From IMG/VR virus record IMGVR_UViG_3300042691_047443, positions 1-64,000 of that record: DNA of 64,000 nucleotides; one strand, given 5' to 3'. Made by a program: the position numbers and the translations under genes. Below, one piece after another: positions 10,923 to 30,029 of this stretch (position 1 is its first letter; every line of letters starts with the position of its first letter). Origin of the DNA: a virus. The notes under the pieces were generated by a model that saw nothing but the letters and a program-made list of their open reading frames with translations, ran no database searches and was not told the DNA's origin.

Positions 10923-11294
10923 TTAGGCGCAAGTTTGATAAGATGAAGATCTTGGCGTTAAGTCTACGCAATTACCTGCTCGACGTCTGACCAATCTTGC
11001 ATAGTTGTTTTTTTCATTTTCAACAGTAAAGTCTATGAGACTCACACCATCTGATGATTCAAAAACAACTGAACCTGACAAATCAGACATAAAAAAACAT
11101 AAGAACTTATCAGGACCCGAACATTCCCAATAAGAATTGCATATCTTATATTTGGACCTTGGCAACTGTTGCCCCTTGTTTACTTGAATGTTTACAAGAG
11201 AAAATTTGTTGCACCTTGGACATGTGCCTCTGCGTAGTCTTTCCGCATGCTCGTCGAGAAGAATTCGTCTTACTTTCATTCCCTTAAACCACAT
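10923..11294 (-). CDS. unknown protein with N-terminal Cys pair (123 aa)
   Basis: Starts MWFKGMKVRRILLDEHAERL, then GTCPRCNKFSLVNI, half of a zinc-ribbon; further cysteines occur at CNSYWECSG. The C-terminal half is mixed. A T4-like regulator or nucleic-acid-binding role is possible but not shown. The start codon lacks a good ribosome site. Confidence 0.55.
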   Translation of the reverse strand: MWFKGMKVRRILLDEHAERLRRGTCPRCNKFSLVNIQVNKGQQLPRSKYKICNSYWECSGPDKFLCFFMSDLSGSVVFESSDGVSLIDFTVENEKNNYARLVRRRAGNCVDLTPRSSSYQTCA

Positions 11295-11306
11295 TGTATC
11301 TTAACG

Positions 11307-11450
11307 TCAATCATAACTTTCTTCAAAGACATTGGGATTTTGTTTCCATTGGGGATCTTTCATCCCCATGAGATAAAGTATTTCACTACACAAACATTCA
11401 TTACAGGCCTGAACGTTAACCCATCTTAATATATACTTAGGCCTTACCAA
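11307..11450 (-). CDS. probable small Cys protein (47 codons, TTG start)
   Basis: An open frame from a TTG at 11450 to TGA at 11307 occupies most of the largest stretch without a longer gene (11295-11519). Its translation looks coded: RWVNVQACNECLCSE then YLMGMKDPQWKQNP and VFEESYD, with a C-x-x-C-x-C cluster. No ATG before residue 28 and no ribosome site, so it may be a remnant, a TTG-started gene, or chance. The GGGGAT/ATCCCC hairpin at 11351-11367 falls inside it. Confidence 0.45.
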   Translation of the reverse strand: MVRPKYILRWVNVQACNECLCSEILYLMGMKDPQWKQNPNVFEESYD

Positions 11451-11519
11451 AATTTAAAACGAGCAGTGCATGACATTTCTTTCCAAACTGTGTCAACTGC
11501 CTGAATTTTTCTATCTTAC

Positions 11520-11924
11520 TTATGAAAGTCTCAATTTACCCTTGACGCCATTTCCAAGATCAACGTACGCAGTATCTGAATCCCCGGTGGAGTAGGAATC
11601 TTCCTCTGGTTCTGCGGCAGTTTCTGCAAACCATTCCGTTGCCTTGTTCACCGCCAACTCAATGTGTTTATTCACTGATCTTGTCGCTCTGTCTAACATC
11701 ACTGTTCTTGCATGTTCAGCTGACTCAAACACCTCACCCTGTATGCTACTTAACAGATAATGTTTTGGATTTGCGCCGCCTGATTTTAAAGAATATTCTG
11801 TCTCCGTGGAGATCTCGCCTGCGTGCCATATCTTCTTTGTAATCTCTTCGTCCACACGCATCGGATATACAACCGTCTGTTTGTCGGGTATAACGTATAC
11901 TATTTGACCTACGTTAAGTTTCAT
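11520..11924 (-). CDS. unknown protein (134 aa)
   Basis: AAGGAG stands five to six bases before the ATG at 11924. The N-terminal 45 residues are strand-rich (KLNVGQIVYVIPDKQTVVYP), followed by a helix and an acidic tail (EPEEDSYSTGDSDTAYVD). No family recognised. Co-transcribed with the next gene upstream, separated by two bases. Confidence 0.6.
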   Translation of the reverse strand: MKLNVGQIVYVIPDKQTVVYPMRVDEEITKKIWHAGEISTETEYSLKSGGANPKHYLLSSIQGEVFESAEHARTVMLDRATRSVNKHIELAVNKATEWFAETAAEPEEDSYSTGDSDTAYVDLGNGVKGKLRLS

Positions 11925-11926
11925 TT

Positions 11927-12304
11927 TCACTCCTTTTTAGGAAAGAGAGAATTGGTGACGCCATCCTCGTCGTCATCCTCGTCGTCATCATCATCCTCAT
12001 CGTTATCTGATGGCTCATTTGCAAGTTGAAATACTCCCAGAGGGGACATTCCGGTCGGGGCGATTACGTAATCAGGCGCGCTATCACCTGTTGGAAGACC
12101 TACCTCCTGACAAGCATTCACAAGCTTTTGCCACAACATTGACTCTATCATTTGGCGATTTTCTAAAGTCGCCAGAGAATTACTTATCGTTTGCTTTCCC
12201 TCCGGAGGGAGGGAAATGCTCATTAAATCCCTGAGGTGTAATAATTCGTACTTGGTGAATCTAATCTCATATGTCTTTCGAAGTTTAATTTCAGGTTTAT
12301 TCAT
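11927..12304 (-). CDS. unknown protein with Asp/Glu-rich tail (125 aa)
   Basis: The helical N-terminal part (YELLHLRDLMSISLPPEG) is followed by LWQKLVNACQEVGLP, then an almost uninterrupted acidic tract encoded by 11960-12005. The ATG at 12304 has no ribosome site but TAATAT six bases upstream. Resembles conserved hypothetical proteins of T4-like phages; not identified further. Confidence 0.6.
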   Translation of the reverse strand: MNKPEIKLRKTYEIRFTKYELLHLRDLMSISLPPEGKQTISNSLATLENRQMIESMLWQKLVNACQEVGLPTGDSAPDYVIAPTGMSPLGVFQLANEPSDNDEDDDDDEDDDEDGVTNSLFPKKE

Positions 12305-12310
12305 GCAGTT

Positions 12311-12316
12311 ATATTA
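12311..12316 (-). promoter_or_regulatory. candidate -10 box of a leaderless promoter
   Basis: TAATAT on the minus strand, exactly six bases before the ATG at 12304, which lacks a Shine-Dalgarno sequence. Same box and spacing as before thyX. Confidence 0.4.
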
Positions 12317-12340
12317 CAACTTTTTATTGCTTGTGTTTAA

Positions 12341-12631
12341 TCACTGATTACTTTCGTCAAGTACTTCCATAAAGAGATCATACGTATCCCTGTGTTCAAC
12401 GCCCTTTTGAATCTTTGCGACCTTTAAAGCGGCCTGAAGAGTTTTGTAATCGAGCTTTTCGCTGTACTCTTCGATCACCTCTTTGCGATCTTCCTTGAGA
12501 AGCTCAATCTCATCATCGATTGATTCAATTTTCTTTACGAACTCTTTGACCAAAGCACGAAGAGCATTGATCTCTGTGGGTTGCATGACTGCGATATTGT
12601 ACTGCTTTTCAGATTTATTCTTTTTTCCCAT
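12341..12631 (-). CDS. GapR/DUF2312-like coiled-coil protein
   Basis: The core INALRALVKEFVKKIESIDD, ELLKEDRKEVIEEY, DYKTLQAALKVAKIQK has the helix pattern of the DUF2312/GapR family. GapR clamps overtwisted DNA in alphaproteobacteria; phages carry relatives of unknown role. The match is by eye. The start is taken as MGKKNKSEK at 12631; GTG at 12649 is an alternative. A nucleoid-binding or replication accessory role is inferred. Confidence 0.6.
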   Translation of the reverse strand: MGKKNKSEKQYNIAVMQPTEINALRALVKEFVKKIESIDDEIELLKEDRKEVIEEYSEKLDYKTLQAALKVAKIQKGVEHRDTYDLFMEVLDESNQ

Positions 12632-21458: not shown

Positions 21459-21896
21459 TTACCCCGATTTGTCCATTTTGATCGCGTCTTGATAACTGAG
21501 CACCTCAATTCCGGCAGATCTCATCATTTCAAGACCTGAAGTGTCCCTGTATTCGTGCAGGTATATGACTCTAGAGATTTCAGCGTTTATTATAAGTTTT
21601 GAGCATGCCCGACAGGGGCTATGCGTAACATACATATGTTTCTTTTTAGAAAAGTTGTAATCACACTTAATTAATGCATTAACTTCTGCGTGAATAAACC
21701 CGCTTTGGCCTGGTTCTTGTGATTCGTGACAATTAGGGCCGCCCTTGTAGTTACCATTGTAACCCATCGACAACATCTGAGTGTTGTCTTCTGCTACGAC
21801 AATGGCACCAACTTTTAACCGTGGATCGTAAGATCTTCCAGAGATAACGTTTGCAACGTCCATCCACGTTTCTGACCAATATTTTCTTTGATTCAT
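21459..21896 (-). CDS. dCMP deaminase
   Basis: The zinc-deaminase signature is complete: HAE in SGFIHAEVNALIKC and PCRAC in THSPCRACSKLII. Preceding residues (RLKVGAIVVAEDN, SMGYNGNYKGGPNC) match deoxycytidylate deaminases. It converts dCMP to dUMP, feeding ThyX (41115-41774). In a phage that modifies cytosine it would also help drain unmodified dCMP (inference). The start overlaps the thymidine kinase stop (ATGA). Confidence 0.93.
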   Translation of the reverse strand: MNQRKYWSETWMDVANVISGRSYDPRLKVGAIVVAEDNTQMLSMGYNGNYKGGPNCHESQEPGQSGFIHAEVNALIKCDYNFSKKKHMYVTHSPCRACSKLIINAEISRVIYLHEYRDTSGLEMMRSAGIEVLSYQDAIKMDKSG

Positions 21897-22471
21897 TTCT
21901 TTAACTTAAGATTAAAAACTGTTGGAAAATGAGTGGCGCACCTGGGTTCGTAAAGTTCATCGCCACCCACCTCAACCACAAATTCATCTCCGCCTAATGT
22001 CTTTTTATGCGTAAAGGGGGCATCATCTCCACAAACGGTGCAAACCGCAGTGCACTTCTCTATCCGGGTTGCCCAAGGCAACATCTGAGAAATTTCAGGG
22101 AAAGGCTTTCCGTTCGATGCCATGTCCAGCGTTGACACGATCACGTTAAAACCACTTTGGTACAAAAAGACAAGAACCTCAGCAATTCCCGGAATCATAA
22201 AGGCTTCATCTACGGCAATAACGTGAGGATCTTCACTTGCATTGGCAAGAAAGTGCAAGATATCTGCGCCTTCTTGCACACAAACTGCAGAATGCCTCCA
22301 TCCACCGTGTGTCATGATTTCAGCAACGCTGTACCTCGTGTCCATGGTGGGTTTAAAAACAGCAACCCTTTCACGTTGATACTTGTAACGTTCCAGGTCC
22401 ATCAATAACCTAGACGTTTTTGAGCTAAACATGGGACCACAGTATACATTAAAGACAGGATTTTTCTGCAT
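21893..22471 (-). CDS. thymidine kinase (type II)
   Basis: P-loop NVYCGPMFSSKTSRLL at the N-terminus, lid and Walker-B-like VIAVDEAFMIPG, and a zinc-type Cys pair in CTAVCTVCGDDAPFTHKK fit cellular and T4-type Tdk. Phosphorylates thymidine and deoxyuridine. The start MQKNPVF at 22471 follows GGGG by six bases; a GTG at 22483 is possible. Confidence 0.92.
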   Translation of the reverse strand: MQKNPVFNVYCGPMFSSKTSRLLMDLERYKYQRERVAVFKPTMDTRYSVAEIMTHGGWRHSAVCVQEGADILHFLANASEDPHVIAVDEAFMIPGIAEVLVFLYQSGFNVIVSTLDMASNGKPFPEISQMLPWATRIEKCTAVCTVCGDDAPFTHKKTLGGDEFVVEVGGDELYEPRCATHFPTVFNLKLKK

Positions 22472-22482
22472 CAGATTCCCCA

Positions 22483-23070
22483 CTAATCTAAGGTATAATT
22501 TTTACATAAGGTGTTCATCAACAAAATATTCAAATTTTCCTTGAATGGCGTCCTGAGCCATTCTGGGATGACATCATGCCAATGGTGAGGCTTATAATTG
22601 TTTCTGTCTGCCGCAACGTTGAAATGCCTATCATAATTAGGACCTTTCTCATGTACGTGACCATGAACAATATGCAAAAAATCACCCAAGGCTGATTCGT
22701 CAAACTTTTTATCGGAAAGTGACTTAAGTGGATAGTGTGACAACGCCACACCCCCTAGGTTAAGATAATCGTAAACAGCGATGAAACCTGAATCTATGTA
22801 CCACTGATCCTGCTGGTGATCGTGATTACCTCTGATCAGGATCTTCTTACCGTTCATTCGCCGGATCAATTCTCTTAATTCTTCAATTCTTCCCTTTAAT
22901 CCGGCCGATATGTCGCCTACAAAAACCCCGACGTCGTTTTCCTCTACCCGAGAGTTCCAGTTCTCTAACATGTGTTCGTTCATTTGGGCTGAGTCCACGA
23001 AGGGCCTGGAACAATACCTGATGATATTTTCGTGAAAATAGTGATTGTCTGATGTGAAATAAACCGTCAT
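22483..23070 (-). CDS. calcineurin-like metallophosphoesterase
   Basis: The metal-binding blocks appear in order: YFTSDNHYFH (D-x-H), GVFVGDISAG (G-D), LIRGNHDHQ (G-N-H-D), ALSHYPL and VHGHVHEKG. A complete small phosphoesterase of the type found in T4-like phages. Substrate unknown; possibilities are cyclic or RNA 2',3' phosphates. It lies directly next to the RNA-ligase-like gene, so it could heal RNA ends for it (inference). Confidence 0.85.
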   Translation of the reverse strand: MTVYFTSDNHYFHENIIRYCSRPFVDSAQMNEHMLENWNSRVEENDVGVFVGDISAGLKGRIEELRELIRRMNGKKILIRGNHDHQQDQWYIDSGFIAVYDYLNLGGVALSHYPLKSLSDKKFDESALGDFLHIVHGHVHEKGPNYDRHFNVAADRNNYKPHHWHDVIPEWLRTPFKENLNILLMNTLCKNYTLD

Positions 23071-23071
23071 A

Positions 23072-24661
23072 TTAAATTCTCAATGTGTTCCAAATTGTGT
23101 CCTTGTTGTCCTCTGACAGCCAGGATGGTAAATTTTCCTTGAAAATTCTGCTCTCCCCTGAAGAGAGGTAATCTCTCATATCGCTTGCACACAAACCATT
23201 TGTCAACGTCCTTGAGATCGACACGTGTGATAGTCGTTCCTTAAATTGTGGGAGACGTGTGAGGAACGACTCCAACCTTGACTTCGCATCATCGTCGCCA
23301 TCGCCTGTGGAGCCTCCATAGATTGACACAGAACCAGATGCTCCGGTCAAGAATCTTTTTGCAAACAACAAGGCTTCCGTCATAGGAGACCCGGAAAACG
23401 AAGCATAAAGACCCGAGCCGTACATAATTTCCATCTTAGGAAAGTACACGTCCCTCCACAACGTCAGCATGTCATGTGTTGATACGTTTGAACGATCTTT
23501 CGTCGACAAGAACAACATCACTGACTTGCAACCGTCACTAAATGCACGATCAATTAGAGAGGCATGACCAGCGTGAAAAGGCTTTGCAGCCATGGGAATC
23601 AAGGCAACGTTGTCTGACTTGTCAGGTCCCAATAGGTTCAGCTTTGCGGTAAGAAACACATCATCTTGGACACTCAAAAGTGTTTTTATGGAATGTGCTG
23701 GTAGCGTTTTTGTTCGATAAATGCGAGAAGACAGTTCTCCAAAAGTCTCCTGTAGATCACTTATTACGACGTCTTTAGTCATTTCAGCAGCTACTTTGTG
23801 AATAGCTTCCCAGTATGTTTCCTCGTCTCTTTCTGTTGCTTTGAATCTTGATTTCTTTGCGTCTCGTACTTCTTTCAAGTGTTGGTCAGGAGCAAGCACT
23901 TTGCTAAGAGATTTCCCGTCGTCGCCTGTACGTTCAATCACTACACCTTCGGATTGACCACCGAGAACAGATTGAAAATCCTCAAACACGCCTATCAGAC
24001 GTTTCATCACCTCTTCGTGACGATCGAAATCAACGTGTCGAAAAGCCGAAATCAACAATTCTCTAACGCTACCAACAGCCGAACCGAATTCAATCGCCTC
24101 AGGTGCATTCATCCGTCCTTTAAATAAAGTTGGAAATTCACCAAGCTGTAACAATTGTCGATATTTTTCAAAGCGCTGCGCGTCATCGTGAAACATCGAA
24201 GAGCTGTACAGACGACCACGAAACTGTACAAAATTGCAGTCGCCAAAACCCACAAGGAACATGTTGTGTTTCAGCACATAGTCACGAGTAATCGTGGGCT
24301 TATTCTGTACAAACTCAACGAAAAATTCAGTGTTTCTCGGAATCTCTGCACAATCAGGGTGAACCTTCCGTAAATGATCATGCACAAACTTATATTGAGA
24401 CGTGCCGATGGAAAATTCCCGTATCTCGGAATCACGCTCAGCAAGACCACAAAATTCAGTGGCGTGAATGATGTTGTCCTTGTATGACACAATCCAGTTT
24501 TTGGTATAATCGATAGGATCAAATACTTCACAATTTCTGATTAACGTAAGCTTTGTTCCATCAATCTTTTCCACGATCTTCAGGTGACCGTCGAAAAAAA
24601 TCTTTGCCTTGCTTGCGGATGTTATTGTCTTCTTTAAGTCTTTAATCGAAATATCAAGCAT
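23072..24661 (-). CDS. fusion: RNA-ligase-like domain plus HxGH adenylyltransferase
   Basis: Residues 1-260 carry the covalent nucleotidyltransferase motifs: K32 in KIVEKIDGTKL (motif I), TEFFVEF at 111-117 (motif III), EGVVIER at 238-244 (motif IV) and a lysine near 254 (motif V). Residues 350-529 are a second enzyme of the cytidylyl/NMN-adenylyltransferase type: PFHAGHASLIDRA (H363-H366) and a late LCASDMRDYL resembling S-x-T-x-x-R. So a ligase-type adenylating domain is joined to an HxGH nucleotidyltransferase. Possible roles are RNA repair linked to NAD or nucleotide supply. The downstream neighbour is a phosphoesterase and the upstream one a pol-beta-type nucleotidyltransferase. AGGA precedes the ATG. 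Confidence 0.8.
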   Translation of the reverse strand: MLDISIKDLKKTITSASKAKIFFDGHLKIVEKIDGTKLTLIRNCEVFDPIDYTKNWIVSYKDNIIHATEFCGLAERDSEIREFSIGTSQYKFVHDHLRKVHPDCAEIPRNTEFFVEFVQNKPTITRDYVLKHNMFLVGFGDCNFVQFRGRLYSSSMFHDDAQRFEKYRQLLQLGEFPTLFKGRMNAPEAIEFGSAVGSVRELLISAFRHVDFDRHEEVMKRLIGVFEDFQSVLGGQSEGVVIERTGDDGKSLSKVLAPDQHLKEVRDAKKSRFKATERDEETYWEAIHKVAAEMTKDVVISDLQETFGELSSRIYRTKTLPAHSIKTLLSVQDDVFLTAKLNLLGPDKSDNVALIPMAAKPFHAGHASLIDRAFSDGCKSVMLFLSTKDRSNVSTHDMLTLWRDVYFPKMEIMYGSGLYASFSGSPMTEALLFAKRFLTGASGSVSIYGGSTGDGDDDAKSRLESFLTRLPQFKERLSHVSISRTLTNGLCASDMRDYLSSGESRIFKENLPSWLSEDNKDTIWNTLRI

Positions 24662-25814
24662 TCAACTTCCTATTATAGTACGAAGCGATCATCTTCTCTA
24701 CGTGATGATCATACACCTTCAGAAATTGAAGTTCATTCCTGAACATATTTACCGCAGGCATCTTTGTGCTATAATCATTCGATTCATCAAAAATGTCGAG
24801 GACTTGGCTTTTTTGACCGAAAAGTTTGTGATCTACGAAGTCAAGGTATATGTCACATATAACCTTTTCTTCAAAGAAAGAGTTCAGCAGCGTCAACAGG
24901 CCCAGAAATGATGAGAACAAGTTCAGATCATCTTTAGTCGGGACTCGTGACACGAGCATTTCAAAAATGTCAGATTTACTCCTGACAAAAATAGAATCAC
25001 GTGCCTCAGTCTTTTTATATGCAAATTTTCCCGACACCATGACAGGAGTACAATCACGGTAGAATTGTTGTTCAGCTGCAACTCTCAATCCTTTGTCAAC
25101 AGAAAATGACAAAGTGTGAACATGGTCTGATTTTGCAAGCCTAATTTTTTCGAACGGTTCTAACGGGCTTTGTGGCGTTAACAACACTGCATCATGTCTG
25201 GATGATACAACAGTTGCAATACTTCTCAACAGAAGTTTGTGGAACACGCCTTTGACGCCTGCCTTTACGTCAAACCAATTTGATGACTTAGAAAATTTAA
25301 TGAACTCGAGCGGACCATTAGCATCATATGGTGTCCCTTCAAAATCTATCTGAACCTTTAACTTGTTTAACTCATTGAGTTCATATTCAAAAACAGAATT
25401 TATCTGACCGTTTGTTAATGAAGGCTTCTGACCTAAAAAGCTATGCTTTTCGGTAATTTTTTTACCCTGCATTGAACTAAGAACCTCGGACAGCGCACGT
25501 AAATTATTGTCTGGTACTGTTATGTCAAGATCGCCGATCTTCGGCTTGTATCGAACAAACTCCTCAGAGGAAATACCGTAGTCAAACAAGTGAGATGAAG
25601 AACCGTTGAAAACAGCGCATGTTGAAAAAAGATCGCTCCTCACCCCTTTTGGCCAAAGATTTAGACCGACGTGATCATGATACGCAGAATCTATCTGCTC
25701 AAACAAAAGTAAGAAATCATTCACAAAACGATCCCTATCTAGGATCCTGAAGTCAGGTTTGTCAGGCCTTTGATTGAGTCCATTAACGTCAACAACAACA
25801 ACATTCCCACCCAT
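24654..25814 (-). CDS. pol-beta-type nucleotidyltransferase
   Basis: The superfamily signature is seen as FNGSSSHLFDYG (residues 69-80) followed by KPKIGDLDITV with D95 and D97, and a third acidic strand KLKVQIDFEG near 155. The remaining 220 residues are not recognised. The family includes CCA-adding and poly(A) enzymes, aminoglycoside transferases and antitoxin-type transferases. The gene overlaps the ligase fusion by eight bases, so the two proteins probably act together, for instance in tRNA or RNA end repair (inference). Confidence 0.75.
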   Translation of the reverse strand: MGGNVVVVDVNGLNQRPDKPDFRILDRDRFVNDFLLLFEQIDSAYHDHVGLNLWPKGVRSDLFSTCAVFNGSSSHLFDYGISSEEFVRYKPKIGDLDITVPDNNLRALSEVLSSMQGKKITEKHSFLGQKPSLTNGQINSVFEYELNELNKLKVQIDFEGTPYDANGPLEFIKFSKSSNWFDVKAGVKGVFHKLLLRSIATVVSSRHDAVLLTPQSPLEPFEKIRLAKSDHVHTLSFSVDKGLRVAAEQQFYRDCTPVMVSGKFAYKKTEARDSIFVRSKSDIFEMLVSRVPTKDDLNLFSSFLGLLTLLNSFFEEKVICDIYLDFVDHKLFGQKSQVLDIFDESNDYSTKMPAVNMFRNELQFLKVYDHHVEKMIASYYNRKLNA

Positions 25815-25820
25815 CTTAAT

Positions 25821-26369
25821 TTAATCCTGGTTCAATACTACGAACGGAGATTTTACGCTGGGAGAATACTCCCCTGCGACCGCAAGGGCCCTTTCTATCT
25901 TTTGCTTTGGCGTCAGCGATATGTCATGGTAAAGAACATTCATCGCGCCTAGCGCATATGCAAATCCAGAGCCTGACACTGCAAACTTTTGTCTTAAAGA
26001 ACTTACGTTAAAGTCGGCCTCAATCACGTATATGTTTCCCTTGAATCCAAGAACGATCTCGGAGTCATGAGCATCTCCAGTTTCTTCCTTGAAAAGAACG
26101 CCCTTTGTGTCAAGCAGATTTCTCAGGCACTCCACAAAGTCGCACACTAGATATTCCATGTGTGCCTTATTGTTGAGAAACTTGGGAGGCCTGAGAGACC
26201 AACGTAACAGTTGTCCTATTCTGAAACTGCCTGAAAATCCAATAAGAAACTCACCGTTCTTGAAAACCTTTTCATCTTGACGAATGAGAACCTCATCCTC
26301 CCGATAAGAAGCGGAATCTGCACCCATCCAGATGGAACCATTATCTTCAAGTGCGACAACGCAGGTCAC
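25821..26369 (-). CDS. HslV/proteasome-beta-like Ntn hydrolase
   Basis: The protein begins (M)TCVVALEDNGSIWMGADS, so initiator removal would expose Thr1. Asp in GADSAS and Lys in DEKVFKNGEFLIGFSGS correspond to the Asp17/Lys33 pair of HslV. FAVSGSGFAYALGAMNVL matches the G-S-G turn, and the end resembles HslV helix 5. The length of 182 aa equals HslV. Translation starts at a GTG overlapping the upstream stop (GTGA) with AAAGG seven bases before. It may assemble as a peptidase ring with host HslU or another ATPase. No unfoldase is adjacent. Confidence 0.85.
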   Translation of the reverse strand: MTCVVALEDNGSIWMGADSASYREDEVLIRQDEKVFKNGEFLIGFSGSFRIGQLLRWSLRPPKFLNNKAHMEYLVCDFVECLRNLLDTKGVLFKEETGDAHDSEIVLGFKGNIYVIEADFNVSSLRQKFAVSGSGFAYALGAMNVLYHDISLTPKQKIERALAVAGEYSPSVKSPFVVLNQD

Positions 26370-27130
26370 TTGAAAGCCTTTCCATATACAGACTCAGGAT
26401 AAGCGTCTCGATACTTTGACCTTGTAATACTCAACTCGCCAGTTTTCAAAAAGTGATCGACTAGGTAAAAATCTCTCTCATATACATGGATGCTTCCGAC
26501 CTGCCAGTGCAGATTACCTGCAGGATAACCAAGCTCACTCGCTACCTTCTCTAACATATGTTGCTGCCAAGATCTATCATTCTTGTATCCAATTAGCGCA
26601 TCGTTACTACGCATTTGCACGATAGCATGGCACTGTCCATTTCTTATAACATACTGAACTGCGTTGGTACACATGAAATCACTGCGACCGTTTGCGCTGT
26701 AATCTTCCCACATTGAAGGTCTTGTGTAGATGATGATTGCCCGTCGACTTTCTGGGTTCTTCCTCAATTCGCCTACGACCTTTTCGAACTGAGATCCGTT
26801 CTCGGGGCTTCGGACGCACCACCCATAGTTAGAGTTGATCTTACCGTCGGCACAGGCAATTGCACGCCAAACAGCAGGTGCGCCACCGGGAAAATCATTC
26901 ACGTTAAGCGACATGGAGTCATACCACTCTTCTTCACGCTTTACGTAATCATGGTTCACTTCTCCGAAAATAACTTCGTCGCCTGCAATGAAACTGGCAC
27001 CGACAATCTCAATCGTGCGAGACCCCATGAGATTGGTCATTGATGCCTCTCGATTGATGGACGTGAAGTGATTCCCCAAAAATAGATTTGCGAACTCATT
27101 CCTAATATCGATCACATTATTGTAATTCAC
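26366..27130 (-). CDS. thymidylate-synthase family, probable dCMP hydroxymethylase
   Basis: The TS fold signature is clear: SRRAIIIYTRPS, catalytic C154 in DFMCTNAVQY, RSND at 174-177 and IHVYERD near 217. Counting from the cysteine without gaps, the residue that selects the base in E. coli TS (Asn177, 31 after the Cys) is here D185. T4 dCMP hydroxymethylase has Asp at the same place. The phage also encodes ThyX, so dTMP synthesis does not need this enzyme. It would make 5-hydroxymethyl-dCMP. GTG at 27130, overlapping the epimerase stop (GTGA) eight bases after GAGG, is chosen over upstream ATG/TTG codons. Confidence 0.8.
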   Translation of the reverse strand: MNYNNVIDIRNEFANLFLGNHFTSINREASMTNLMGSRTIEIVGASFIAGDEVIFGEVNHDYVKREEEWYDSMSLNVNDFPGGAPAVWRAIACADGKINSNYGWCVRSPENGSQFEKVVGELRKNPESRRAIIIYTRPSMWEDYSANGRSDFMCTNAVQYVIRNGQCHAIVQMRSNDALIGYKNDRSWQQHMLEKVASELGYPAGNLHWQVGSIHVYERDFYLVDHFLKTGELSITRSKYRDAYPESVYGKAFK

Positions 27131-28095
27131 TTGTTTAACCTCATGTTGCTGATCCATGACCAATTGTTATTATACCACTCGATAGTACGTTCCAGACCTT
27201 CCCAGAATCTAACAAGGGGACTATATCCCAACGTTATATGGATACAGTTAACGCTTGCTTGAGTGTGCATCACATCGCCCGAGCGCCATGGTGCATCGTG
27301 GCTTTTTGCATCTGGAAATCTTCCTTTAAGAAACTCAAGGATTTCTTTATTTGTTGTCCTGTCGCCGCAGGCAACATTGAAACAAGCGGCCGCAAGATCG
27401 TTATGGTGCGCTGCTGCACGCACGCAGGCATCTGTCACGTTATCAACGTAGCACATGTCTCGTGACTGTGAACCGTCTCCGTCACTGCGCATCGACATGC
27501 CTTTGTTTATGGCCGTAAGCCACGCAGAAACCGCAGTTGAATATGGAGAATCTCCCAATTGATTTGGTCCGAATACGTTGAAGAACCTCAAGGCAACTGA
27601 ATCAAGTTCGTACAGATCATAATAGATCTTCAGGTAATCTTCAATAATTGACTTCTGCAACGCATAGGGGGACTTTGGGTCCTTCTTTGTGGCTTCAACC
27701 GTTGGAAGCTTTTGAGCCCCACCATAGACAGAGGACGAAGATGCAAACACAAAGCGTTTTACGTTGTTGCGACAGGCTTCCATCAATTGAAGCGTCTTAT
27801 TTACGTTGGTTTCGTGCGTCTCAATGGGGTGTTCCACAGAATAACTCACCCGTGGTACAGCTGCGAGGTGAAAAATCACATCAAACCACTTTGACCTAAT
27901 CCTCGAAAGAACAGACTCAGAAGAAAAGTCTTCCTTTAAAAAGAGATTTGGATTGGCTGCAAAAAGAGGGGGCAAAAATTCCGTGTGACCATTTGAAAGA
28001 TCATCAACACCTGTGACATCCCAACCTTCCTTGAGACACCTTGCTACGAGGTTACTTCCGATAAAACCTGCAGCACCTGTGATCAAAACTCGCAT
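27127..28095 (-). CDS. NAD-dependent UDP-sugar 4-epimerase (extended SDR)
   Basis: Rossmann start MRVLITGAAGFIGSNLVARC, VDDLSNGH, FHLAAVPRVSYSV, catalytic YALQK preceded by SSSSVYGG, and FFNVFGPNQ mark an extended short-chain dehydrogenase of the UDP-hexose/UDP-pentose 4-epimerase type. Substrate preference cannot be read with certainty. Near-neighbours are a hydroxymethylase and a glycosyltransferase, and a UDP-glucuronate decarboxylase lies 7 kb away. UDP-xylose to UDP-arabinose conversion is therefore attractive (inference). AGGAG precedes the ATG. Confidence 0.88.
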   Translation of the reverse strand: MRVLITGAAGFIGSNLVARCLKEGWDVTGVDDLSNGHTEFLPPLFAANPNLFLKEDFSSESVLSRIRSKWFDVIFHLAAVPRVSYSVEHPIETHETNVNKTLQLMEACRNNVKRFVFASSSSVYGGAQKLPTVEATKKDPKSPYALQKSIIEDYLKIYYDLYELDSVALRFFNVFGPNQLGDSPYSTAVSAWLTAINKGMSMRSDGDGSQSRDMCYVDNVTDACVRAAAHHNDLAAACFNVACGDRTTNKEILEFLKGRFPDAKSHDAPWRSGDVMHTQASVNCIHITLGYSPLVRFWEGLERTIEWYNNNWSWISNMRLNK

Positions 28096-28150
28096 CTAAA
28101 TCTCCTGAATGAAACAAATTTACAACAGAAAAAGCTCATGTACACATGAC

Positions 28151-29473
28151 TCAAAGTAGGTTCATCTTACGCATTGCATGTGTGGTTGTCGACTCATAGG
28201 AACAACGATCCCTCACAACGTTGAGCAACGGAACCATCGAATTGCACCACTCTTTTGTGCCCTTGTTTTGCTTAACGTGATCTATGAGATTGGACGCAAC
28301 TTCAACTATGTCAGAGAAATCTGACTTTGCTAGAACGGGTACTTTAAACCCAAGCTCAGATGCATCTCGAATGATTCCGGAGTATTCAAAATTATTCAAC
28401 CATAGAGGTAAACAGCCCAATTCTACACACTCTCTGGCGACAGTTCCACCATACGTGTCTTGGTCATACAGGCCTAAAGCGATGTCGACATGCGTTGCAA
28501 CAACCTTGAATTCATCACGTGTAAACGAATCAGGAACAAGAGAGACGTAACCGTTGTGACCGCACTCTGACGTAAGTTCCTCATTGGAGAACTTCTGGCT
28601 TGGGTTCCCAGCAAGAACGACGAAATCATTTCGTCTCTCATGTAAACGTGGAAGTACGTCAAACATGAATTTGCCACAATTTGTGTAATCTGACGATCTT
28701 CCTTTGCCACCGATCCGGTTTGGAACAAAGATAATTGTCTTGCCTTGCTCACGCCATCGATTGAAGACATTGGGATCAAATCGGATCCCATCAAGGTCAG
28801 GCGCGGACCTAATCTCCTCGATCGAATATCCGTCATCCCACGGTGATGATTTTGCCATTACAGCGTCCACGACGCCATCACGGAATAACTTACGTGCCTC
28901 TGCCTCAAATTCAGAAAGCGCGGACCCACATTGCCAAAAGTTCCAATCTGCCTTTAAGGCGGCCTCACATTGACCCAACCACAATGATGCATCAATCGGA
29001 AACTTGGGACAGGACGGCACATCTACAAAGTGTGAATGAACATAAAATTTAGGTTGATATCCACCTTCAAGGAGGAACATCGCCTTAAAGTTTCTAAGGT
29101 GCATCGGATCGTTGAGATACACCGCATCATATCTCACTGTAACTTCCGTCTTGTGCCTTGAAAGACCTAGTCTACGTGACAGCGAAGAAACGTCAAAGTT
29201 GTACCGAGTCGCAAGTGCATTCGGAAAAATGTCATGCTCCACGTAGTGTACACGTGAACCCCATGGAATATCAGGATTTACCTGATACGGTGTGGTGACC
29301 ACAGACCCTTCGGAAAGAAGGGGACCCATAACGTGAATCACGAGATCCGGATTCTGTTTTAGCATTTCACGGACACGACCCATGACCATCTGCCATCCAG
29401 AGTCACACTCAAGGATGAATCTGCCTCGTGTGTCATAGTTAGAAAGTTGTGTTTGAATAAGTAATTTTTTCAT
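28151..29473 (-). CDS. GT-B glycosyltransferase
   Basis: A two-domain GT-B layout: an N-terminal half starting MKKLLIQTQLSNYDTRGR, and a C-terminal donor half with TIIFVPNRIGGKGRSSDY, DFVVLAGNPS, VDIALGLYDQDTYGGTVARE and ELGCLPLWLN. The E-x-x-x-x-G-x-x-P region is typical for nucleotide-sugar binding in retaining GT4-like enzymes. There is no membrane segment, so a soluble acceptor is likely. Its place between the hydroxymethylase/epimerase and the dNMP-kinase-like gene suggests it glycosylates hydroxymethylated DNA, as T4 alpha-GT does (inference). Confidence 0.82.
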   Translation of the reverse strand: MKKLLIQTQLSNYDTRGRFILECDSGWQMVMGRVREMLKQNPDLVIHVMGPLLSEGSVVTTPYQVNPDIPWGSRVHYVEHDIFPNALATRYNFDVSSLSRRLGLSRHKTEVTVRYDAVYLNDPMHLRNFKAMFLLEGGYQPKFYVHSHFVDVPSCPKFPIDASLWLGQCEAALKADWNFWQCGSALSEFEAEARKLFRDGVVDAVMAKSSPWDDGYSIEEIRSAPDLDGIRFDPNVFNRWREQGKTIIFVPNRIGGKGRSSDYTNCGKFMFDVLPRLHERRNDFVVLAGNPSQKFSNEELTSECGHNGYVSLVPDSFTRDEFKVVATHVDIALGLYDQDTYGGTVARECVELGCLPLWLNNFEYSGIIRDASELGFKVPVLAKSDFSDIVEVASNLIDHVKQNKGTKEWCNSMVPLLNVVRDRCSYESTTTHAMRKMNLL

Positions 29474-29486
29474 GTGTTTCTTTGTG

Positions 29487-30029
29487 TTATCCCAGAAAAG
29501 AAATGATATCAGACACTTCTCTGTCTAGATTTTCGTCGTCGACATTCAGCTTCATATAATCACAGGCTGTGATTTCATGTAGGTATTTTTCATAGTGATC
29601 GTCTAGCTTCTGCAGGGTTTCTTGCTGAATTCTAGAATCTAGATCATCAATGATTCCTGTGTACGAACTTCTGCGACAAAAGATTATTTTTGCCCCCAAG
29701 GATGCCCACTGCTTGTCCATGTGGACAAGAAACTTCTCATCAGTCTTGCGATGAAACACGGATGAATAGACCCATTCACACGGAAAACCCCTGTCAAATA
29801 TAACTCCGTAACCGGTCTGCTTCAAAAGATCAAGTACGCGAGGATCGGCATGCCGCAATTGTGACAGAAACAATTCATTTTTGTCATCCATCGACAAAAA
29901 CGATGAATGTTCAGAGGAGGCCTTAAAATAAGGAACACTTAGTCGGACCGACAACTCTTTTGCAATCTGTGTCTTGCCACACATATCAGGACCAACCATG
30001 AACACTAAACGTTGTTTTTGTTTCAACAT
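29487..30029 (-). CDS. P-loop kinase, probable deoxynucleoside-monophosphate kinase
   Basis: Walker A MVGPDMCGKTQIAKELSVRL at residues 11-30, Asp-Arg in GVIFDRGFPCEWVYS, and lid-type IIFCRRSSYTGIIDD fit thymidylate/deoxynucleotide kinases. T4 gp1 is the precedent for phosphorylating hydroxymethyl-dCMP. The ATG at 30029 has no ribosome site; TAAGAT lies six bases upstream, inside a double palindrome. Confidence 0.75.
   Translation of the reverse strand: MLKQKQRLVFMVGPDMCGKTQIAKELSVRLSVPYFKASSEHSSFLSMDDKNELFLSQLRHADPRVLDLLKQTGYGVIFDRGFPCEWVYSSVFHRKTDEKFLVHMDKQWASLGAKIIFCRRSSYTGIIDDLDSRIQQETLQKLDDHYEKYLHEITACDYMKLNVDDENLDREVSDIISFLG

Follow-up and report, generated by a model that had tools for sequence, protein, structure and literature searches.

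In the 64,000-nucleotide (nt) stretch of viral DNA analysed here (hereafter referred to as the window; positions 1 to 64,000 of the IMG/VR virus record IMGVR_UViG_3300042691_047443, itself a fragment of 76,489 bases), two overlapping genes on the minus strand are predicted to encode a pol-β-type nucleotidyltransferase (NTase) and a fusion of an RNA-ligase-like domain to an adenylyltransferase domain of the HIGH (HxGH) type. A phosphoesterase gene follows them. The genes and the domains of the fusion are laid out as follows.

24654..25814, minus strand: pol-β-type NTase gene; 386 amino acids (aa), N-terminal GGN motif; phrog_19290 (unknown function), 9e-39
23072..24661, minus strand: ligase–HIGH fusion gene; 529 aa; phrog_27149 (unknown function), 4.8e-32
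23876..24661, minus strand: predicted RNA-ligase-like adenylyltransferase domain of the fusion; approximately residues 1–262, putative nucleophile K32
23627..23875, minus strand: helical linker of the fusion; approximately residues 263–345
23075..23617, minus strand: HIGH (HxGH) adenylyltransferase domain of the fusion; approximately residues 349–529
23564..23575, minus strand: HxGH motif of the fusion; residues 363–366, H363-A-G-H366
22483..23070, minus strand: calcineurin-like metallophosphoesterase gene; 195 aa; phrog_547, 1.4e-39; a variable partner

The NTase and fusion open reading frames (ORFs) share 8 nt, and the phosphoesterase ORF starts past a 1-nt gap after the fusion. The fusion and NTase ORFs are not chance ORFs, because relatives at 24–49% (fusion) and 23–45% (NTase) identity keep the active-site residues.

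The fusion protein and its NTase partner

The fusion was modelled with AlphaFold2 from a 29-sequence alignment. The model (mean pLDDT 90.0, pTM 0.88) contains both a ligase fold and a HIGH adenylyltransferase fold, as a reading of the DNA made without database searches (the sequence-only reading) had expected of the two halves. Residues K32, D34 and G35 (motif I), E116 (motif III), E238 and G239 (motif IV) and K254 (motif V), which we take to be the ligase motifs so numbered, are invariant in all 29 aligned relatives. The same reading had described a 529-residue protein with these four motifs followed by HxGH, and had placed the ligase nucleophile at K32; the residues were located as described, the residue number was right, and the invariance extends to the last histidine of HxGH.

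The best matches of the fusion model in the PDB are structures of T4 RNA ligase 2 (Rnl2; 2hvr, 6.7e-8, and 1s68, 5.8e-6, by Foldseek), and Naegleria RNA ligase and TbREL1 are likewise among the matches; the TM-scores of the Rnl2 matches are low (0.35–0.44 by target) and the root-mean-square deviation (r.m.s.d.) is high across the whole chain. Judged by its modelled fold and its motifs, the N-terminal half is a divergent Rnl2-like ligase, though the window protein lies below the Pfam cut-off. Among the relatives, the L043 fusion passes the cut-off of Pfam RNA_ligase (28.0 bits, G019), L004 falls narrowly under it (1.3e-5) and L016 is matched by the PHROG 'RNA ligase' family phrog_548 (5e-4). 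Pfam recognizes the HIGH half alone in the window fusion (PF08218, 5.4e-5), and the VIA-align rows listed for the fusion are of the PPAT/NMNAT type only and are uninformative on the ligase half, because the HIGH half filled them.

Between the two halves, residues 263 to 344 of the model form helices only (263–270, 277–295, 303–316 and 328–344, assigned by DSSP), and the HIGH domain follows. DNA ligases and capping enzymes carry an OB fold at this place; no OB-fold domain was found after motif V in the fusion model, and no DNA ligase is among its top 50 Foldseek PDB matches. With RNA ligases as the top structural matches and no OB fold after motif V, we consider a DNA ligase identity unlikely.

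The C-terminal half of the model superposes on PPAT over 150 aligned residues (Z 13.5, r.m.s.d. 2.8), and a profile of the fusion family finds PPAT (7e-8) and NMNAT (5.7e-7) by sequence. The HIGH half thus has, in the model, the PPAT/NMNAT fold together with an HxGH motif. H366, the last histidine of that motif, is invariant in the 29 aligned sequences; of 32 members left after dereplication at 90%, all 31 whose HxGH region is readable have it. Drift at other motif positions had raised the suspicion that the HIGH domain is dead; this was withdrawn because none of the 31 members has lost the last histidine and an HxGH also persists in sequences of a more divergent clade, described below.

The upstream gene had been read from the sequence as an overlapping NTase with a GDLD motif, and its model (pLDDT 92.5, pTM 0.89) agrees with that description. 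It resembles Pol X enzymes (Pol λ, μ, β and TdT; E 3.7e-4, Z 8.3), and its residues G71-S72, G94-D95-x-D97 and D157 do not vary among the 21 aligned sequences. With GS, DxD and a third aspartate on a modelled pol-β fold, the NTase is assigned to the pol-β superfamily. No Pfam family matches it at E ≤ 1, and its profile has no match among PDB sequences. Membership in the RlaP family was ruled out, PF10127 having 0 matches in G000; in 19 carrier records picked from the contigs analysed, which were searched for RlaP, PF09414 and Rnl1, PF10127 matches occur in 4, all away from the NTase gene. In one relative, L035 (754–3095 and 5962–7614), the NTase and the fusion are each broken into two ORFs, as may have come about through insertions, introns or sequencing errors.

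Association in relatives and variable partners

The NTase, ligase and HIGH domains are associated in relatives. Of 50,697 phage records, 21 contain the fusion family, 15 of them from Campylobacter and 6 from Vibrio phages; the NTase family is found in all of these and additionally in Xanthomonas phage X1. The 21 records represent essentially two lineages, and the contigs are not phylogenetically independent. X1 has the modules as a row of adjacent single genes, in the order NTase, one intervening gene, ligase-like and HIGH. In Campylobacter phage CPt10, the NTase and fusion genes are distant from each other (at about 20 and 86 kb), indicating that linkage alone does not hold them together.

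In IMG/VR, 40 contigs carry the fusion, and the NTase lies within the stretch examined in 31 of them. Of the other nine, L018, L026, L042 and L049 are truncated by the end of the contig, three Campylobacter phages carry the NTase at another place in the record, as does L017, and L029 has no NTase in its 183-kb record. Whole records were searched for the NTase, the kinase described below and CCA-adding enzymes (24 records each, picked from the contigs analysed, the CCA set differing), and the NTase was found in 21 of its 24 records. Among neighbour families near the fusion at 34 loci, a cluster of NTase and kinase is found at 28, the phosphoesterase at 10 and the next family at 5. A pattern scan of genome contigs for cellular homologues gave 24 pattern matches and 0 relatives. 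The sequence-only reading had named two outcomes that would speak against it, models without a ligase fold and domains consistently separate from each other and from their neighbours in relatives; neither appeared, and the domains and the NTase were instead kept together.

A second, more divergent set of relatives shows the same association. An NTase profile found 117 relatives in IMG/VR, of which the best 80 were kept, and the distant ones are N-terminal parts of proteins of 670–2135 aa, in which the NTase is followed by a segment with ligase-like motifs (A5) and then, in most, by a HIGH segment. A search with A5 found 140 relatives; among the best 80, the NTase is present at 80 of 80 loci and HIGH at 74 of 80, with 58 single NTase–ligase–HIGH polypeptides. 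The count of 80 of 80 is not fully independent, because the A5 query came from sequences first found beside the NTase. The HIGH domains of the two clades (HIGH1 and HIGH2) are homologous (hhalign 99.1%, 1e-18). Neither A5 nor A6 alone has an RNA-ligase match in the PDB by sequence.

Other genes accompany the module in part of the relatives. One is a kinase, which forms a fusion with the NTase in L004 and with ligase–HIGH in L061. Its profile matches PDB entries 4gp7, 4jst, 4gp6 and 4mde (3.8e-7 to 8e-6; labelled metallophosphoesterase), which we take to be the Clostridium thermocellum Pnkp kinase, followed by adenylate kinase (0.005), T4 PNK (1ly1, 0.006) and PezT (0.88). Zeta toxin was considered for this kinase and rejected: Pfam Zeta_toxin matches some members at about 1e-3 to 1e-6, and PezT ranks far below the polynucleotide-kinase entries. 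The kinase is present in 11 of 24 whole records, three of these matches being weak (4.5e-9, 1.3e-7 and 1.2e-5, the last with internal stops), and tblastn found none in phage isolates. In L096, a 469-aa protein (11010–12419) that combines the kinase with an apparent second pol-β-like NTase (GDIDVIV...VQVDF) adjoins a complete NTase, ligase–HIGH and phosphoesterase set.

The window's phosphoesterase has the metal-site motifs and matches structure 1xm7 (5.4e-29). A CCA-adding-type enzyme lies directly after the fusion in L016 (PolyA_pol 3.7e-12) and a few kb from it in Vibrio phages, and occurs in 6 of 24 records. At L017 (1649–4185), a 715-aa form of the fusion is immediately preceded by 17 tRNA genes.

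Interpretation and alternatives

The predicted folds, the conserved active sites and the lasting association point to a phage module for repairing the ends of RNA, the likeliest substrate being tRNA that host defence nucleases have cut; we regard this as somewhat more probable than all other explanations together. As to substrate, order of steps and biological role, we infer the following course. Broken ends would be healed by the phosphoesterase, by the Pnkp-type kinase where one is encoded, or else by other phage or host enzymes; the NTase would then extend a 3′ end by one or a few nucleotides, for instance to make good one that a nuclease had removed; and the Rnl2-like half would self-adenylylate on K32, activate the 5′ phosphate and seal. 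The HIGH half may contribute a conserved site, for nucleotidyl transfer or for nucleotide binding, whose target is the same substrate or its cofactor. The CCA-adding-type enzymes near the fusion in some carriers and the tRNA genes of L017 hint at tRNA as the substrate, and the Pnkp-type kinase in part of the relatives strengthens the end-healing step. T4 offers a precedent: Pnk and Rnl1 repair tRNA-Lys cut by PrrC. RloC excises the wobble nucleotide, and it has been proposed that such damage defies repair by this pair (PMC2610378). A lesion of the RloC type needs its nucleotide restored, and a nucleotide-adding NTase would meet this need, as is predicted for RlaP (PMC7824862).

Much of this had been proposed in the sequence-only reading as an end-healing, nucleotide-adding and sealing set. 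The folds, the strict association and the Pnkp-type kinase of some relatives speak for such a set, but the phosphoesterase is just a variable partner of it: the gene is present downstream as described, yet as a member of the set it is weaker than was stated, being of a common calcineurin-like type and found in 12 of 40 fusion contigs.

Several other observations weigh, like that count, against RNA end repair. The kinase, of about 180 aa, is found in as few as 8 of the 40 contigs, and neither it nor a CCA enzyme has a match in the window's 76-kb record, a fragment. No tRNA gene lies within the window, and tRNA genes occur at just 3 of the 40 fusion loci scanned. PF09414 (RNA_ligase) has no match to the window fusion at E ≤ 1 and 0 matches in G000, and the likeness of the NTase to Pol X is moderate only. 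Of the 31 readable members, 6 have His as the first residue of HxGH and the others Thr or Ser (Thr at this position occurs in PPAT too). In the ISxTxxR-type motif, 7 of the 31 retain the final Arg; the window protein is one of them, its counterpart of the motif being C-A-S-D-M-R. Rnl1 (PF09511) is encoded in 10 of 19 carrier records and 11 of the 19 give PF09414 matches, of which some are the fusion; with ordinary RNA ligases in many carriers, the module is not their sole ligase. Finally, no profile link was found between the two ligase-like clades (probabilities 6.3 and 2.0; hhalign score 22.9, against 11–16 for mismatched domains). Their unity is therefore unsupported by profile comparison, and we call the divergent segment ligase-like on motifs and position only.

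A bolder form of the RNA end-repair reading would make the three unrelated nucleotidyltransferase folds (pol-β, covalent ligase and HIGH) one machine, in which HIGH acts on an RNA phosphate and the NTase replaces nucleotides excised by RloC-like nucleases. We think this unlikely, and we know of no earlier example of a PPAT/NMNAT-type fold acting on RNA phosphate. If true, the HIGH adenylyltransferase fold would gain a new role in modifying RNA.

The module might instead modify ends of RNA or DNA in a capping-like manner, HIGH putting a nucleotide on a 5′ or 3′ phosphate of the phage's nucleic acid and the ligase and NTase finishing or removing it, to shield the end from exonucleases or sensors. 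Three different nucleotidyl-transfer folds are indeed kept as a single unit and the catalytic histidine of HIGH is invariant; moreover, PPAT/NMNAT-type enzymes transfer AMP to a phosphate monoester, the acceptor group found at an RNA 5′ end. The kinase and phosphoesterase partners, however, are typical of end healing, and many members have degenerate HxGH and ISxTxxR signatures, which leaves end modification improbable in our view. DNA break or gap repair, with the module as an analogue of LigD (polymerase, phosphoesterase, ligase) built from unrelated folds, would suit the nearness of the NTase model to Pol λ, μ, β and TdT and the kinase or phosphoesterase of some relatives. It is at odds with the fusion model, which lacks an OB-fold domain after motif V and has RNA ligases as top structural matches, and Firehammervirus already encodes a T4-like DNA ligase (PMC2853527); we rate DNA joining slightly below end modification, and as less likely than RNA end repair.

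A role in cofactor metabolism, in which HIGH would synthesize a dinucleotide (NAD, dephospho-CoA or another), as happens in phage NAD salvage, for the ligase half to consume, is also less likely than RNA end repair, and we hold it very improbable. The PPAT/NMNAT fold of the HIGH half, a weak PHROG match of the fusion to nicotinamide-nucleotide adenylyltransferase (0.012) and the combination of kinase and HIGH, which recalls NadR in outline, are the points in its favour; set against them, the kinase profile fits polynucleotide kinases and not NadR, the conserved NTase partner would be superfluous for cofactor synthesis, and the HIGH motifs vary beyond what is expected of a housekeeping enzyme. 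No NAD-salvage partner (nicotinamide phosphoribosyltransferase or NR kinase) turned up in general scans of 10 window genes, with no directed search made. The coupling of NAD chemistry to ligation, which the sequence-only reading had offered as a second option, found no specific support, the HIGH half being at least as near CoaD/PPAT as NMNAT. We give as little weight to a virion-carried multi-enzyme (polyvalent-type) protein with an early-infection role, not necessarily in RNA repair. Distant relatives of 670–2135 aa, one with LysM and phage lysozyme domains and one with an amidoligase domain, suggest such a protein, and in X1 some 1.5 kb separate the module from an annotated baseplate hub protein gene. 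Against this, the window's genes and those of most close relatives stand alone, the former among nucleotide-metabolism genes, and no such protein is named among the excerpted CP220 gel bands (PMC2853527).

Relation to known systems and neighbouring genes

Most of what is known of phage RNA repair concerns T4 Pnkp/Rnl1 and RlaP-linked ligases. The N-terminal half of the fusion shares with the Rnl2 family the adenylyltransferase fold, motifs I, III, IV and V and the lack of an OB fold, and differs from it in its fusion to a HIGH domain, its very low sequence similarity and its near-constant NTase partner. The HIGH half resembles PPAT (CoaD) and NMNAT in fold and in the HxGH signature; unlike them, it is fused to a ligase, and its motifs have drifted. 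As with the T4 Pnkp and Rnl1 tRNA repair set, kinase, end-healing and sealing functions would be combined in a phage, here as predicted from the genes. The ligase and phosphatase belong to other families, however, an NTase and HIGH are added, the kinase and phosphoesterase are optional, and the Firehammervirus and Vibrio carriers encode an Rnl1 gene alongside the module. The bacterial Pnkp–Hen1 and Pnkp1–Rnl–Hen1 complexes likewise comprise kinase, phosphatase and ligase, and the kinase found here matches Pnkp-type entries; those complexes differ in that the present set has the extra NTase and HIGH and consists of separate small proteins.

RlaP is a pol-β NTase that accompanies phage RNA ligases and is predicted to restore lost nucleotides (PMC7824862). 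The NTase described here similarly accompanies an RNA-ligase-like domain in phages, but it has no PF10127 match and a different motif layout, and 4 of 19 carriers encode RlaP as a gene of its own. Among the entries listed by our literature searches, none describes this fusion or module; an earlier mention in the main RNA-repair survey may exist. Two families listed as being of unknown function, phrog_27149 and phrog_19290, become parts of one conserved three-domain module, a candidate answer to how phages mend tRNAs lacking a removed nucleotide. Its carriers are cultured Campylobacter and Vibrio phages, the Xanthomonas phage with adjacent single genes and many environmental phages; as cultured phages are among them, the module is testable at once.

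In the window, the module belongs to a tightly packed minus-strand run comprising an HslV-like gene, the NTase, the fusion, the metallophosphoesterase, thymidine kinase and dCMP deaminase, in which the phosphoesterase ORF and the thymidine-kinase gene share one base. Thymidylate synthase and epimerase genes lie upstream of this run (Pfam and PHROGs scan of 10 window genes). The module is surrounded by nucleotide-metabolism genes (21459–30029, minus strand): dCMP deaminase, thymidine kinase, thymidylate synthase, a thymidylate-kinase-like P-loop protein and a nucleotide-sugar epimerase. The HslV-like gene (25821–26369, minus strand; phrog_1040, 8e-21), of the Ntn-hydrolase type, lies between thymidylate synthase and the NTase.

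Giant proteins that open with NTase, ligase-like and HIGH segments continue with LysM and phage lysozyme domains in L121 (7908–12716), with an amidoligase and a second NTase-like domain in L102 (5761–11982) and with an HD domain in L111 (7983–11537). Neighbours of 400–450 aa with an N-W-N-P-A/G-D ... S-L-K pattern, which could be nuclease-like to judge from that pattern, recur in L032 (3298–4662; matching phrog_1462, 2e-79), L028 (1990–3294), L031 (7454–8680) and L048 (2851–4128), and in L107 (6857–9505) the NTase is joined to a segment with a pattern of this kind.

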